From positions 1-35,550 of the IMG/VR virus record IMGVR_UViG_3300010392_000274: a stretch of 35,550 nucleotides of DNA. One strand, written 5' to 3'. Source of the stretch: a virus. The notes under the pieces were generated by a model. It saw only the letters and a list, made by a program, of their open reading frames with translations, had not been told where the DNA came from and did no database searches. Made by a program: the position numbers and the translations under genes. Of this stretch, positions 9,605 to 20,764 are shown piece by piece. The first letter of the stretch is position 1; each line of letters begins with the position of its first letter.

Positions 9605-9800
9605 ACTGGAGGACAGCTTTGAGCAACAGCTCCGCAATAAGGTCGAGAACTACATGGATCGTGAGGATCTCAAGACCGCACACCTAGCAGACAAGACCGA
9701 GCTCAATCCGCAGACCATCAAGAGGTGGCTGGACGGCAAGACCTCGATGAGCCTGGTAAACTACGAGAAGATTCACAACTTAATGGAGGGCAATGAATAA
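9582..9800 (+). CDS. Small XRE-like helix-turn-helix protein
   Basis: The 72-residue protein is almost entirely an XRE/HTH_3-type domain: helices at about 28-37, 40-51 and 57-67, with the DNA-reading part in LKTAHLADKTELNPQTIKRW. It lacks a dimerisation extension. It is embedded in the early operon, overlapping the genes on both sides, and is one of two candidates (with the product of 4864) to bind the palindromes. It could be a repressor or activator; that is inference. Without an integrase nearby it does not by itself imply lysogeny. Confidence 0.65.
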   Translation: MKQDKQIKLEDSFEQQLRNKVENYMDREDLKTAHLADKTELNPQTIKRWLDGKTSMSLVNYEKIHNLMEGNE

Positions 9801-10614
9801 GAACCTACTGATCACGGTCTCAGGGGGAAGATCCTCCGCTTTTATGGCTCGCCACATCCAGACGAGTGAGAAGTACAAAGACCTTAAAAAGTTGTATGTC
9901 TTCTGCAACACTGGACAAGAGCGTCCTGAGACCATTCAGTTCCTCAAGAACATAGTCGAGCACTGGGGGATTCCCCTCAACCTAATAGAAGGTAAGTATT
10001 CACAAGAGAAGGGCGTCGGAGTTAAGCACAACCTCGTCGGGTTCCACAATCTAGACATGACTGGACGACCATACAAGGAAGCGATCCAGCAAATGAACAA
10101 GAACAAGATCGTGGGGGTTCCTTGTTCAGTCGTTCCTTATTGTTCTGAATACCTAAAGATTCGACCAGCTCATAGCTTCGCGAAGGAGATCTTCGGGACA
10201 GTTAACTACATCAAAGCGATCGGATACAGACGCGAGGATCTATATAGTCGCACGTCCATGACAGAGATCAAAGCGAACAAGAAGATCATCGCCCCACTGA
10301 TCACAGACTTCCATGAGCCTATAGGCAACCCAGAGCTCAATGACTTCTATAATGACAACCCCTTCCAGTTGGGTATCCACAACAAGCTAGGCAACTGTGA
10401 GCTCTGTTGGAAGAAGTCAGACCGCAACCTGATAGAGGCGATACAATACGGGACTAGGTTCATAGAGTGGCACCAGGAACAGGAGCAGACCTATGGGAAT
10501 ATGTTCTTCAGAGATCGCAAGAGTATCATGGACTTGGTCGCACTAGCTCAACAGGGGGAACAGTTAGATCTATTTGACGACACCAACGGGGACGGGTGCG
10601 TCTGTGAATTTTAA
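9793..10614 (+). CDS. PAPS-reductase-like / PP-loop ATP pyrophosphatase family protein
   Basis: The 273-residue protein opens with the PP-loop SGGRSSAFMA at residues 10-19, the ATP-binding signature of the adenine nucleotide alpha-hydrolase fold used by PAPS reductases, DndC and tRNA thiolases. Further on are the VFCNTGQERPETIQFL segment, a CSVVPYCSEY pair and cysteine clusters GNCELCWKKS and CVCEF near the end, which could bind metal or a cluster. Phage members are common and usually unassigned; sulfur chemistry on DNA, RNA or small molecules is possible. It overlaps the XRE-like gene by eight bases. Confidence 0.75.
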   Translation: MNKNLLITVSGGRSSAFMARHIQTSEKYKDLKKLYVFCNTGQERPETIQFLKNIVEHWGIPLNLIEGKYSQEKGVGVKHNLVGFHNLDMTGRPYKEAIQQMNKNKIVGVPCSVVPYCSEYLKIRPAHSFAKEIFGTVNYIKAIGYRREDLYSRTSMTEIKANKKIIAPLITDFHEPIGNPELNDFYNDNPFQLGIHNKLGNCELCWKKSDRNLIEAIQYGTRFIEWHQEQEQTYGNMFFRDRKSIMDLVALAQQGEQLDLFDDTNGDGCVCEF

Positions 10615-12177: not shown

Positions 12178-12398
12178 ACATTCAATTTAAAGGGGATCCG
12201 ATAGAGCTCCCCAAAGGCTACACCTGGAGCGTCTTCAGATACTTCACACCAGCAGGGACACAAGTGAGCCCTGTCAAGTTTAATAAGTTCGACAAAGCTA
12301 TCCACCACTGGCAGGATGGAGACTTCCACCTGTTTGAATTATGGAGGGGATCCATGAGGGTCATGGCTTACTGTCTAATTAAATACACAAAGAAATGA
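12174..12398 (+). CDS. Hypothetical protein, 74 aa
   Basis: Overlaps its neighbours by ATGA on both sides (12174 and 12395). Aromatic-rich small protein (GYTWSVFRYFTPAG, HHWQDGDFHLFELW) without a recognisable domain. Unknown function. Confidence 0.6.
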   Translation: MNIQFKGDPIELPKGYTWSVFRYFTPAGTQVSPVKFNKFDKAIHHWQDGDFHLFELWRGSMRVMAYCLIKYTKK

Positions 12399-12919
12399 GC
12401 GAGGACAAATACAAGCTAGAAGAGATCACAAAAAAGGAGCCTCCATATCTGGGTCTTCGTTTTGTATGTAGGTCTGAGTCATTCCTAAGAACCTGCGACT
12501 TCATGATCCACCAGAACGATATGGAAGAGCTGGAGAAGAAAACCTCCTCCGATGGTTTGGCGCTCACAGAACTCCATCAATTAGAGAGACTTTATGGAGT
12601 AAGGAAAGAACCGGACGAGATCTTCCCCGGAACACTTGACCAGCTGGACGGTATAAACATAGGCTTCGAGGGAATCCATAACATAGCGACAGACTTCAAG
12701 GTTAAGATCAGACCACTGTACGACGTCGCCAAGGAGGTGACAGACCAGGTCATCGAGTCCTATGACGTGAAGGATCTCCCTGACTTCATCACAAACTGCA
12801 AGATCATAATGGTCAACCACCTGGAGAAGCTCCACAAGGAACACCAGGACACTCACAACGAGACCCATGAAGAGATGAGACTCATCAAAAAAGTCTGTGA
12901 GATATTAGAAAATAGTTAG
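12395..12919 (+). CDS. Hypothetical early protein, 174 aa
   Basis: Acidic alpha-rich protein: an N-terminal LGLRFVCRSESFLRTCDFMI segment, a middle helical part (LDQLDGINIGFEGIHNIA) and a long charged C-terminal helix (about 135-172, with several His). No family recognised. Last protein gene of the third early unit, ending 11 bases before the tRNA. Confidence 0.6.
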   Translation: MSEDKYKLEEITKKEPPYLGLRFVCRSESFLRTCDFMIHQNDMEELEKKTSSDGLALTELHQLERLYGVRKEPDEIFPGTLDQLDGINIGFEGIHNIATDFKVKIRPLYDVAKEVTDQVIESYDVKDLPDFITNCKIIMVNHLEKLHKEHQDTHNETHEEMRLIKKVCEILENS

Positions 12920-12930
12920 TACATTGCACT

Positions 12931-13006
12931 CGCGGAGTGGAGAAGTTGCTATCTCGCCTGGCTCATAACCAGGAGGACGGGGGTTGGAGTCCCTCCTCCG
13001 CAACTA
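12931..13006 (+). tRNA. Initiator-type tRNA-Met (CAT anticodon)
   Basis: The 76 positions fall exactly on standard numbering. Stems pair: acceptor CGCGGAG/CTCCGCA with the initiator hallmark mismatch C1-A72, D stem GAGA/TCTC including A11-T24 (typical of bacterial initiators), anticodon stem CCTGG/CCAGG with loop CTCATAA, T stem GGGGG/CCCTC with one wobble. Two of the three initiator G-C pairs (30-40, 31-39) are kept and 29-41 is T-A. Position 19 is C and 56 is G, the reverse of the near-universal G19-C56. The 3' end is CTA, so CCA must be added post-transcriptionally. Confidence 0.9.
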
Positions 13007-13029
13007 AAAGCGGTAGCCCCGCGAAATTA

Positions 13030-13054
13030 GAGCCTCAACGGGCTCTTTTTTTTT
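13030..13054 (+). terminator. Rho-independent terminator after the tRNA
   Basis: Stem GAGCC/GGCTC (13030-13034 with 13041-13045), six-base loop, then nine T residues. It closes the third early unit behind the tRNA. A smaller GCGG/CCGC hairpin lies at 13010-13022. Confidence 0.75.
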
Positions 13055-15506: not shown

Positions 15507-15908
15507 ATGGCAAAAGTTTCCGACATAGAATTTTGGCACGCAATGAGAGAGTCCTCCGGGCTTTATTCTAGGGCTGTCCAGTATATCAAGGAACATTACA
15601 ATCAAGACATCACACGGCAGTCTGTAAGGGAGAGAGCGCTCAAAGACGAGGCTCAACTCCTAGACATCCGTGAAGAGGTCAAGGACAAAGCAGAGGGCAC
15701 ACTGATGGATCTCATGGAAAACAGTGACCAGGATCAGGTTCGCTTCAGATCCTCCACCTATGTCTTGGATAGACTCGCAAAGGAGCGAGGATATGGTGAG
15801 ACCGTAGACGTCACAAGCGGAGGGGAACAACTCAAGCCTGTAGACATCACTCAAATAATAAAGAATTTTATAAATGCAGGGAACCCCCAAACAGATCCAA
15901 GCGTATGA
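15507..15908 (+). CDS. Small terminase subunit
   Basis: The 133-residue protein has an N-terminal HTH-like part (about 5-48, SSGLYSRAVQYIKEHYNQDITRQ reduced here to its core) for binding packaging DNA, a central helical oligomerisation part (EGTLMDLMENSDQDQVRF), and the typical DRLAKERGYGE segment near residue 88-98. It sits directly before and overlaps the large terminase gene by 35 bases, the usual order. It would recognise the genome and feed it to the motor. Confidence 0.75.
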   Translation: MAKVSDIEFWHAMRESSGLYSRAVQYIKEHYNQDITRQSVRERALKDEAQLLDIREEVKDKAEGTLMDLMENSDQDQVRFRSSTYVLDRLAKERGYGETVDVTSGGEQLKPVDITQIIKNFINAGNPQTDPSV

Positions 15909-17229
15909 CTACCTGAATGATCAGGTGACAGAGCAACTCCTTTATGGCGGTTCAGCTGGAGGGGGGAAGTCTGCCCTCGGTTGCTTCTGGCAAATCACCA
16001 GGCGACTAGCTTATCCAGGGACAAAGGGGTTCATCGCCAGGGAGTCACTGACAAAGATCCACCAGTCCACCCTGATCACCTTCATAGACATCGCTAAGAT
16101 GTTAGGGTTCGCTCAATACAATATCAACTACCAGAGGAACTACATACAATTCGAGAACGGGAGCAGGATCGATTTGCTCGACGCCAGATATCTACCCAGG
16201 GATCCCCTCTTCGAGAGGTTCGGATCCTTAGACTACACAGATGGATGGATCGAGGAGGGCAGTGAGCTCGTTCAATTAGGATATGAGACCCTTCTGACCA
16301 GGATCGGGAGATGGAAGAATGAGGAGCACGGGATCATCGGCAAGCTGTTGACAACGTGCAACCCATCAAAGGGATATCTGTACCCGATGTTCTACAAGCC
16401 GGATAGACTGAACAAGCTCCCGGAGACCATGAAGTTCGTCAAGGCGTTCATGACAGACAACCCTCACCTCCCTGAGTCGTACATCAAGAAGATGCAAGCG
16501 ATCAAGAACAAGAACATATACCAGCGTCTTGTCCTGGGGAACTGGGAATATGATGACAGCCCTGATGCTCTATGTGACTATGACGATATCACAGCGGTCT
16601 TCACAAATAGCCATATCTATATGGATGAACATGGCAAGCCAAAGGGAGGACTCAAGAAGTACATCACTGCGGATATTGCACGACTAGGATCTGACAAGGC
16701 GATCATCGCAGTCTGGGAGGGTTGGACGATAGTGGAGTTTGTGATCTTCGACAAGAGCAAGACCACAGACATCCAGAGGGCTATCACAGCCCTACGTGTT
16801 AAGCACCAGATCCCAGCGAAGAACTGCGTGGCTGATGAGGATGGAGTAGGTGGCGGAGTAGTGGACAGCTGTGGGATCAAGGGATTCGTTAACAACAGCC
16901 GACCGCTTAAGGTTAACACATCAGGGGACAAGCTGGTGCCTAACTATCAGAACCTACAAGCTCAGTGTTCATATGGACTAGCTGAACAGATAAATGAGAA
17001 CAAGATCTACATACACGCAGACCTGTCAGAGGATCACAAGAACGAGATCATCCAGGAGCTCGAATGGTTAAGATCCTACAAGGTAGACCAGGGAGGAGCT
17101 CTTCGTGTGGTGCCGAAGGACGTGATCAAGGGAGAGATCGGGAGATCTCCAGACTGGAGGGACACGCTCCTGATGAGGAAGTGGTTCGATCTAAACCCAT
17201 ACAAAGGAAACTACGCCATAGGCGGATAA
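15874..17229 (+). CDS. terL: Large terminase subunit (ATPase and nuclease)
   Basis: The 451-residue protein has the full TerL set. Walker A is GGSAGGGKS at 25-33, Walker B with catalytic acids is in DGWIEEGSE at 123-131, and the coupling motif is TTCNP at 160-164. The nuclease acids lie in TADIARLGSDKA (D267), ADEDGVGG (near D321) and SPDWRD (near D427). It pumps DNA into the prohead and cuts it at the end. The first ATG overlaps the small subunit by 35 bases. Packaging type (cos or headful) cannot be read from this. Confidence 0.93.
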   Translation: MQGTPKQIQAYDYLNDQVTEQLLYGGSAGGGKSALGCFWQITRRLAYPGTKGFIARESLTKIHQSTLITFIDIAKMLGFAQYNINYQRNYIQFENGSRIDLLDARYLPRDPLFERFGSLDYTDGWIEEGSELVQLGYETLLTRIGRWKNEEHGIIGKLLTTCNPSKGYLYPMFYKPDRLNKLPETMKFVKAFMTDNPHLPESYIKKMQAIKNKNIYQRLVLGNWEYDDSPDALCDYDDITAVFTNSHIYMDEHGKPKGGLKKYITADIARLGSDKAIIAVWEGWTIVEFVIFDKSKTTDIQRAITALRVKHQIPAKNCVADEDGVGGGVVDSCGIKGFVNNSRPLKVNTSGDKLVPNYQNLQAQCSYGLAEQINENKIYIHADLSEDHKNEIIQELEWLRSYKVDQGGALRVVPKDVIKGEIGRSPDWRDTLLMRKWFDLNPYKGNYAIGG

Positions 17230-18275: not shown

Positions 18276-19521
18276 TAGTCCAGGACGCGAGGAGATGCTT
18301 GACCGACTGATCCAAGAGCTGGAACTCAAGGGGATGATCGACCACGACATCATCGCAGACCCTCAAACATACGGGAAGGAAAACTTCTGGAAGAGATGGG
18401 AGCAAGCTCGTCAGATGTGCCTGGACTCAGATCAGGACGACTTCATGATCATCCCGGACGACATTTGTCAAATAGATCTCAAGACCGTCAAGGATCTACA
18501 TGGTCAATTCAGAGACGACCGCTTCATGGTTAGCATAATATCAGACGGTCGACTGCAATGCTGGGGATCTACTCCACGAGCTGATCGCTATTTCAACATG
18601 AACGGCTACCAGTTTAAGGATTTGCAATTCTTTGACTGTGGAGGAGTGACAAACCGCAAGACCCTCAAGTCCTTCAAGGTTGAGCCTATTAAGGGGAACT
18701 GGTTCGATGAGCCAGGGAAGAGCTCAGGGGTTGGGGCACAGATCACAAGGAAGCTAAAAGAGAAGAGGATCCCGATGTACCAAGTCGAGCCGTCACTATC
18801 TTATCATGGAATGCACGAGAGCAAGATGCACCCATCAGAGCGCAAGAACACGCCACTGGTCTCAATACCTAAACGTCCGAAGGTGGTCATCGGAATGGCG
18901 ACCTTTGGGGTCAGGGATGAGTTCAGGAAGAAAACCATAGACTCATTAATCGGTCAAGCTGATAGGATAATCATCTACAACAATGACGACAATCCTGACC
19001 TGGTAGACAATGCTAAATTCTACGGGCTTAAAATGTACCAAGACCCACAGGATCCAGTGTACTACTTTACTGTTGATGATGACATAATCTATCCACCCAC
19101 ATATGTAGAGGATATGATCACCGCCATAGAGCTCCACAAGTGCATAGTGACACATCACGGTCGGATCGTTGAGAACAAGGGGGTGCCCTACTATCGAGGG
19201 CATAAAGCCATCCATTGCTTGCAGAACAGCGGGGCAGACATAGAGGTCACAGTTCCAGGGACGGGTGTCTGTGCATGGCGGACGGACTACTTCCTCCCAA
19301 AGGATCTACACAACCATGAGCTCCAGCGGATGAGTGACTGCATCTTTGCCCTGGAAGTGGCAAAGCAGGGCAAGAAGATCATGGCACTGAAGCACAAAAA
19401 GGGGTACTTCAAGTACATGGACGTTCCTATTGAGAGCACGATCCACACAACAGAACACAAGAAGGCACACAAACAGCGAGAGATTTGTGACCAGATAATA
19501 GACATAAAAGCATCGAGATGA
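18256..19521 (+). CDS. Two-domain glycosyltransferase-like protein
   Basis: I choose ATG 18256 because MKVIVFSSPGREEML is a natural first beta strand; the frame extends ten codons upstream. Of 421 residues, the N-terminal half (1-200) has a glycosyltransferase-like layout with DDFMIIPDDI at 61-70. The C-terminal half (about 207-415) starts a new fold with VVIGMATFGVR at 210-220, IIIYNNDDNP near 238 and a DxD-type YYFTVDDDIIYP at 269-280 for metal and nucleotide-sugar binding (GT-A/GT2-like). Two donor sites in one chain suggest consecutive sugar transfers. It begins the cassette of surface-chemistry genes; sugars and acceptor are unknown. Confidence 0.7.
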   Translation: MKVIVFSSPGREEMLDRLIQELELKGMIDHDIIADPQTYGKENFWKRWEQARQMCLDSDQDDFMIIPDDICQIDLKTVKDLHGQFRDDRFMVSIISDGRLQCWGSTPRADRYFNMNGYQFKDLQFFDCGGVTNRKTLKSFKVEPIKGNWFDEPGKSSGVGAQITRKLKEKRIPMYQVEPSLSYHGMHESKMHPSERKNTPLVSIPKRPKVVIGMATFGVRDEFRKKTIDSLIGQADRIIIYNNDDNPDLVDNAKFYGLKMYQDPQDPVYYFTVDDDIIYPPTYVEDMITAIELHKCIVTHHGRIVENKGVPYYRGHKAIHCLQNSGADIEVTVPGTGVCAWRTDYFLPKDLHNHELQRMSDCIFALEVAKQGKKIMALKHKKGYFKYMDVPIESTIHTTEHKKAHKQREICDQIIDIKASR

Positions 19522-20222
19522 GATACAGCTTAATAGTGACAGGCTACAACTGTGAACGGTTTGTTCGTCCTTGCATTGATAGCCTATTGAGGCAGACCTA
19601 TAAAGATTTTGAGATCTTAGTGTTCAATGACGCGAGCACAGACAACACCCTCCAGGTCTTAAATGAGTACAAGGACAAGATCAAGATCTACTCCAGCCTG
19701 GACAATGTCGGAGCCCTTGAGCATAGATACAACGCGATCCACGAGTATGTCACCGGGGACGTAGTTGCATTTGTTGGGCTCGATGATATGCTCGCCTCGA
19801 ACGCCCTGGAGACCCTAAATAAATACTACACAGAAGAGATCAAAATGACCTACGGCTCATGGATCACTGACCTGGGTGGTGTGTTTGTGGCTGAGCCCTA
19901 TCCCTCTAAAGTCTACAAGAGGAAGAGCTTCAGAGGAGAGAAGTGGAGAGCTACAGCTCTAAACACTTTTAGGACTGGATTGATTAAGCAGATCCCACCC
20001 AGTCAGCTCAAACATAAGGGGGAGTTCTTTAAGAATTGCACAGATTTAGCGTACAGCTTCCCGTGTCTTGAGATCTGTGAGGAGAGCGAGGTCGCAGTGG
20101 TCACTGAACCTATATACATCTATAGGAAGGCACACAGCAACACAACGCTCAAGCGGTTCGGTAAACCACAGAAGACAATCATCAGAAACTTGTTAAAGGA
20201 AAAGCCATGTATGAAAGTGTAA
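19518..20222 (+). CDS. Family 2 glycosyltransferase
   Basis: The 234-residue protein is a clear GT2 enzyme: YSLIVTGYNCERFVRPCIDS at 3-22, QTYKDFEILVFNDASTDNT near 26-44, and an acidic GDVVAFVGLDD at about 80-90 in place of the DxD motif. The C-terminal part includes an LEICEESEVAVVTEPIYIY segment usual in this family. It has no membrane segment, so it acts in the cytosol. It overlaps the previous stop by ATGA. It would transfer one sugar in the same pathway as the upstream enzyme. Confidence 0.85.
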   Translation: MRYSLIVTGYNCERFVRPCIDSLLRQTYKDFEILVFNDASTDNTLQVLNEYKDKIKIYSSLDNVGALEHRYNAIHEYVTGDVVAFVGLDDMLASNALETLNKYYTEEIKMTYGSWITDLGGVFVAEPYPSKVYKRKSFRGEKWRATALNTFRTGLIKQIPPSQLKHKGEFFKNCTDLAYSFPCLEICEESEVAVVTEPIYIYRKAHSNTTLKRFGKPQKTIIRNLLKEKPCMKV

Positions 20223-20764
20223 AATATTGGAATGACAGGTTCAATCCAAACAAGAGGAATGGAACCAACACAACAGAGGAGAGTTATCTCCCTGAGTTCT
20301 TGAAGGGAGCGATCAACATCCTGGACTTCGGCTGTGGTGTCGGTCGTACATTTAAGTTTTATAAGAATGCTGTCCAGGTGTTTGGTGTGGACTTCAGTGA
20401 GAACTATCGACAAAGAGCCATACAGGAAGCACATGACCAGAATCTTAACTACAAGCACATCATCCACAACGTCCACCAGGATCCTCTTCCTTTATCTGAT
20501 AGAACGATTGAGAAGGGGTTGCTCTTGAGAGTCCTCCTTCACGCTCCTCCTGGAGAAGTGGAGACAATCATCAAGGAGATGGGGAGAGTCTGCAATGAGG
20601 TGCTCTTGATTAGTTACCATGGAACAAGTAAGGGGCTGAGCTCCCACTGTTTCGCTCATGATTATGTGGATCTAGTTGAGAAGCTAGGCTTCGCCATTAA
20701 ATTCAAAGAAATAACAAAAGACCAAATTGTGTTGATTTATGATAGTAGTAGTAGCAGGAATTAA
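20207..20764 (+). CDS. Class I SAM-dependent methyltransferase
   Basis: The 185-residue protein shows motif I ILDFGCGVGRTF at 38-49 and motif II VFGVDFSENY at 58-67 of the Rossmann methyltransferase fold; after that, VLLISYHG (about 130-137) fits a later strand. It has no DNA-target recognition region or Asn/Asp-Pro-Pro-Tyr motif, so a small-molecule or glycan substrate is more likely than DNA. It overlaps the glycosyltransferase by 16 bases and the sulfotransferase by 26, implying a joint product, for example a methylated sugar. Confidence 0.8.
   Translation: MYESVKYWNDRFNPNKRNGTNTTEESYLPEFLKGAINILDFGCGVGRTFKFYKNAVQVFGVDFSENYRQRAIQEAHDQNLNYKHIIHNVHQDPLPLSDRTIEKGLLLRVLLHAPPGEVETIIKEMGRVCNEVLLISYHGTSKGLSSHCFAHDYVDLVEKLGFAIKFKEITKDQIVLIYDSSSSRN

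Follow-up and report, generated by a model that had tools for sequence, protein, structure and literature searches.

G19-C56 and G18-U55 are textbook invariants of tRNA, used to recognise and to define these molecules. Bacterial initiator tRNA (tRNA-fMet), which many phages carry as well (among them Gordonia phage GodonK, Caulobacter phage CcrSC and Xanthomonas phage Elanor), is the described form most similar to the tRNA that we report here, and the two have in common the anticodon CAU, the anticodon loop CTCATAA, a weak or absent 1-72 pair, A11-U24 and the fold; the nearest phage copies of tRNA-fMet reach 84-86% identity. Our tRNA departs from the bacterial initiator at 29-41, which is U-A, and at the elbow it carries C19-G56, whereas the CAU tRNAs that we found at or beside the most similar records of the phage collection, cultured phages included, have G19-C56 in 21 of 21 cases. 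Background on the elbow comes from several sources: RNA partners contact it by stacking and not in a sequence-specific way (PMC4919913), ribosomal protein L5 meets the P-site tRNA at G19-C56 (PMC4810234), and the substrate consensus of TruB has been given as 53-GUUYRANYC-61 (PMC7912444). Engineered tRNAs with altered elbows, the products of the ZtRNA selections (PMC6337575), demonstrate that D-loop and T-loop partners can be changed together in molecules that still work; those tRNAs came out of laboratory selections and kept U55 and C56, whereas the exchange at 19-56 described here is natural. We found no description of natural 19-56 swaps in phage tRNAs in the literature, the coverage of which was incomplete, so that this is weak evidence of novelty.

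The tRNA gene lies on a metagenome-derived viral contig, and the whole 35,550-base record was analysed and is called the window below. The features of the gene that bear on its identity and on its elbow are as follows.

12931-13003, plus strand: initiator-type tRNA gene with anticodon CAU (ARAGORN, Rfam RF00005, sequence)
12931, plus strand: C1, facing A72 (13002) unpaired, a mark of bacterial initiators (sequence; the Rfam alignment flags 1-72 as non-standard)
12949, plus strand: C19, the 5' base of the reversed elbow pair, in the D-loop AGTTGCTA at 12944-12951 (sequence; D-loop from the ARAGORN brackets)
12959-12961, plus strand: U29 G30 G31, with their partners A41 C40 C39 at 12969-12971 (sequence)
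12986, plus strand: G56, the 3' base of the reversed elbow pair, in the T-loop TTGGAGT at 12984-12990 (sequence; T-loop from the ARAGORN brackets)

ARAGORN called a tRNA-Met(CAT) at 12931-13004, and a covariance-model scan of the locus, which an earlier note on this DNA had proposed, gave 55.5 bits for 12931-13003 with the RF00005 clover-leaf model, against a gathering cut-off of 29. Read by position, the gene is CGCGGAG TG GAGA AGTTGCTA TCTC G CCTGG CTCATAA CCAGG AGGAC GGGGG TTGGAGT CCCTC CTCCGCA A. The earlier note had fitted the gene at 12931-13006 to a 76-position frame without gaps; the tRNA is intact, but its gene ends with the discriminator A73 at 13003. The next three bases are CTA, and the tRNA therefore has to receive its CCA after transcription. 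All stems are fully paired except at 1-72 (C1xA72) in both the sequence and the Rfam alignment, the anticodon CAU (12964-12966) sits in the loop CTCATAA (12962-12968) as in bacterial initiators, and the D-stem GAGA/TCTC contains A11-U24, the purine 11 and pyrimidine 24 of initiators. The two initiator features named in the earlier note, C1-A72 and A11-T24, are thus present, and we class the gene at 12931-13003 as initiator-type on these features, which would imply charging with formyl-Met and a start in the P site.

The anticodon stem, on which the earlier note was silent, is where the gene deviates from the bacterial pattern. Only two of the three G-C pairs of the 3GC criterion (29-41, 30-40, 31-39) are in place, 29-41 being U-A, and this counts to some degree against a working initiator, as use in the P site may be weaker. 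The U29-A41 pair and the missing CCA would also fit a role other than initiation, in which the RNA served as a decoy, as a regulator derived from tRNA or as a poor elongator and the swapped elbow reflected a lost ribosomal constraint. Such a role seems improbable to us, since the gene still has its clover leaf intact, along with C1xA72 and A11-U24, and since a decayed RNA would not retain pairing at 19-56. Nor is the stem exceptional among viral copies: 29-41 was A-U or U-A in 70 of the 90 unique viral initiator-like tRNAs that we sampled and G29-C41 in only 19, so the 3GC criterion fits phage copies poorly, and a strong 1-72 pair was generally absent from the sampled phage initiators.

The bases at 19 and 56 are C and G, as the earlier note had reported. 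G18, T55, G57 and A58 are all present, and the remaining tertiary partners are canonical (U8-A14, G15-C48, G18-U55, U54-A58, G53-C61); when the gene is compared with the canonical elbow, G18-U55 is kept and G19-C56 is replaced by C-G. The elbow of the window tRNA therefore departs from the textbook form only by reversal of its outer pair.

We scanned 2.9 million viral contigs for this change in both directions, once with position 56 fixed and the D-loop free and once with position 19 fixed and position 56 free. With the D-loop unconstrained, C19 was present in all nine distinct viral Met-type (CAU) tRNAs having G56 (the window, L007, L028=L042, L034, L035=L054, L036, L039=L059, L181 and L334), which excludes chance as the origin of the swap in the window, and the U56 tRNAs recovered in the same way carried A19. 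In the reverse direction, with a non-G base fixed at 19, G56 accompanied C19 in three of three viral initiators (the window, L007, L181) and U56 accompanied A19 in L061 and L139; the lone mismatch was A19xC56 (L083=L133). No viral match combined G19 with a base other than C at 56. The exchanged pairs of Met tRNAs were C-G and A-U, and U-A was seen in other tRNAs (L046 Thr, L059 Arg). Terminase, portal-like and Gp23 proteins, all phage hallmarks, are encoded on the contigs from which the swapped tRNAs came.

Covariation also appeared in an unseeded test, for which we took all ARAGORN tRNAs of these contigs and assigned position 19 by a rule blind to the T-loop. Matched non-GC pairs at 19-56 numbered 15 (8 A-U, 4 C-G, 3 U-A) in 413 non-CAU viral tRNAs without G55, whereas 20,000 shuffles averaged 0.47 and peaked at 4. 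The contigs of this set were recruited via Met tRNAs, its D-loop registers are in some cases ambiguous, and kinship was only partly removed from it. When each contig and pair type was entered once, 10 matched pairs were left (shuffle mean 1.02, maximum 6). The 19-56 swap thus recurs in unrelated phages, elongators included, with its pairing kept; the earlier note had overlooked this recurrence, which upholds its reading of the double change as coordinated and not as decay. Pairing at 19-56 is not an absolute constraint, as is evident from the A19xC56 initiator and from about a dozen other viral tRNAs that look mismatched there, some of them through ambiguity of the D-loop register.

A second matched change affects the neighbouring elbow pair. 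T-loops with G55 (TGCRA..) were paired with A18, the D-loop reading AG for GG, in 22 of 23 tRNAs, compared with A18 in 8 of 556 tRNAs without G55, and the carriers include the viral contigs L107, L108, L111, L149, L160, L162, L176 and L180. We take the T-loop of this A18-G55 class to resemble the U-G-N-R-A motif seen in T-loops of other RNAs.

Among cellular genomes, a single C19 core pattern detected no C19-G56 initiators in 84,980 genomes, one per species. The same scan returned five initiator loci with C19 from metagenome-assembled genomes (MAGs), representing four unique sequences (L189, L197, L200/L201, L202), and all of them have C56 and a broken pair, which may be an error, decay or a real feature. 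An initiator pattern with G56 matched in 0 of 300 Bacillota genomes, and the canonical control pattern matched 39/41. All 69 non-CAU tRNAs from four bacterial genomes had G19-C56, a sample too small for significance alone, and a related T-loop comparison gave 37/444 viral vs. 2/69 bacterial tRNAs (p = 0.14). The contrast between viral and cellular tRNAs is clear for initiators within the patterns scanned and suggestive for other tRNAs.

The broken pairs in MAGs, together with the derivation of the window itself from metagenome data, raise the question whether an error of sequencing or assembly, or decay into a pseudogene, produced the swap. We assign this very little probability: in the window both bases have changed jointly, eight further distinct viral tRNAs show the combination, and the rest of the gene is intact. 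Two independent errors that happened to recreate a pair, and did so again in unrelated phages, are implausible.

We consider it likely that the window encodes a functional initiator tRNA of bacterial origin, in which two compensating substitutions turned G19-C56 into C19-G56. Transcription of the tRNA, perhaps jointly with the ORF ahead of it, would be followed by RNase P cleavage and the addition of CCA; the tRNA would then accept Met, be formylated and work in the P site. The elbow is expected to display the flat outer face of 19-56, a surface that a reversed Watson-Crick pair should preserve, and RNase P, the L1 stalk and ribosomal protein L5, which stack on or touch this face, should accept the reversed pair. 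In phage tRNAs the elbow fold would still be selected, and the constraint on letters that holds G19-C56 in cells, for instance through modification enzymes that read the T-loop, may have been lifted. The swap would then be mainly a matter of compensatory evolution, with the pairing under selection and the letters under relaxed selection.

Pseudouridine 55 is predicted to be lost from the window tRNA because its positions 53-61, GUUGGAGUC, fall outside the TruB consensus GUUYRANYC, which needs a pyrimidine at 56. The A19-U56 form would still fit this consensus and the C19-G56 form would not, which gives a direct test. Natural matched exchanges of this kind separate what the elbow needs, the pairing, from what host enzymes need, the letters, and the phage variants are ready-made natural test material for recognition by TruB and TrmA, for RNase P, for ribosome contacts and for T-loop-directed tRNases.

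The changed letters could also be adaptive in themselves, if the swap made the start tRNA unrecognisable to a host factor reading the letters of the T-loop, for example a tRNase that cuts there, and so let translation restart once the host tRNAs had been destroyed. We regard this as possible and on balance unlikely. Where host defences cut tRNAs, phage tRNAs are known to rescue the infection, by evading anticodon nucleases (PMC10264068) or by replacing cut tRNAs (PMC11555353), and they resemble the window tRNA in departing from the host version where a host factor could read it. In contrast to the window, where a tertiary pair is altered and a counter-defence role is conjecture, those tRNAs have changes in the anticodon loop, which is the site of known phage escapes, or act by supply. 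A T-loop-cutting tRNase does exist among CDI toxins (CdiA-CT E479; PMC9086364), and the T-loop letters that such enzymes would read are changed in C19-G56 tRNAs as well as in the separate A18-G55 class; against this, the papers found yielded no anti-phage nuclease known to read C56, and only some tRNAs are swapped in phages with many tRNAs, which would be odd if a single elbow reader were the threat. It is likewise doubtful that phages systematically re-letter the elbow (C19-G56, A19-U56, U19-A56 and, separately, A18-G55) with the fold kept, so that part of the tRNA pool would escape host T-loop recognition by tRNases or modification enzymes during infection. The earlier reading as a whole is partly supported, and what it proposed about nuclease protection, altered recognition by elbow enzymes and a link to A-rich or near-leaderless starts is conjecture, to which no gene near the tRNA lends support. 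Bacteroidota commonly do without strong Shine-Dalgarno sites.

Three further features describe the surroundings of the tRNA gene and the nature of the contig.

12395-12919, plus strand: 174-aa ORF without a family match, its stop 11 nt before the tRNA (ORF and family searches)
13029-13046, plus strand: terminator-like hairpin with a T-run, 3' of the tRNA (one found vs. 1.4 in shuffles, weak by itself)
15874-17229, plus strand: terminase large subunit, which marks the contig as a tailed phage (PHROG 2, E 9e-24; tblastn)

Together with a DnaB-like helicase, a portal protein and tape-measure-like proteins elsewhere on the contig, the terminase bears out the earlier claim that the tRNA is phage-encoded. 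By tblastn, the terminase is 36-50% identical to those of Bacteroides, Flavobacterium, Polaribacter and Cellulophaga phages, and from this kinship the host is probably a member of the Bacteroidota. The spacing of 11 nt suggests that the 174-aa ORF and the tRNA may share one transcript. We found no close relative of the contig, and its terminase relatives share no neighbourhood with it beyond the terminase. An orthologous swapped tRNA was absent from the nearest of these (40-54% identity; best 80 terminase relatives), and L233, the only carrier of an initiator tRNA among the 80, has a canonical elbow, which counts against reading the window tRNA as a working initiator whose elbow change is compensatory. 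A role of the tRNA as a prophage attachment site was set aside, since no integrase was identified among the window proteins searched and the gene sits mid-contig, adjoining structural genes. At 9793-10614 and 19518-20764, the window also holds a PAPS-reductase-like gene and a GtrB-like glycosyltransferase that adjoins a weak tRNA-methyltransferase-like match.

Several other phage tRNAs from our searches are unusual in their own right. A T4-like phage (L059 / L294-L298, G006; Gp23, S77 protease) has about 40 tRNAs, mostly with A54 T-loops (ATCG..), several of which are C19-G56 and two U19-A56. In L028 (5530-5632) and L042, a Met tRNA has a D-loop of ~33 nt, seemingly with an inserted hairpin, and keeps G18 C19 and G56; ARAGORN misses it. 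The A19-U56 initiator-like tRNAs of L026, L041, L056 and L058, which are tandem duplicates ~87 nt apart, were likewise unreported by ARAGORN. Phage tRNA counts may thus be low, as ARAGORN leaves out several elbow variants that are revealed by their covarying pairs (e.g. L026, L028). The records of two cultured phages, Xanthomonas phage DoCa5 (L309) and Xanthomonas phage Elanor (L317), contain an unannotated initiator tRNA, which in DoCa5 lies directly after the terminase gene.
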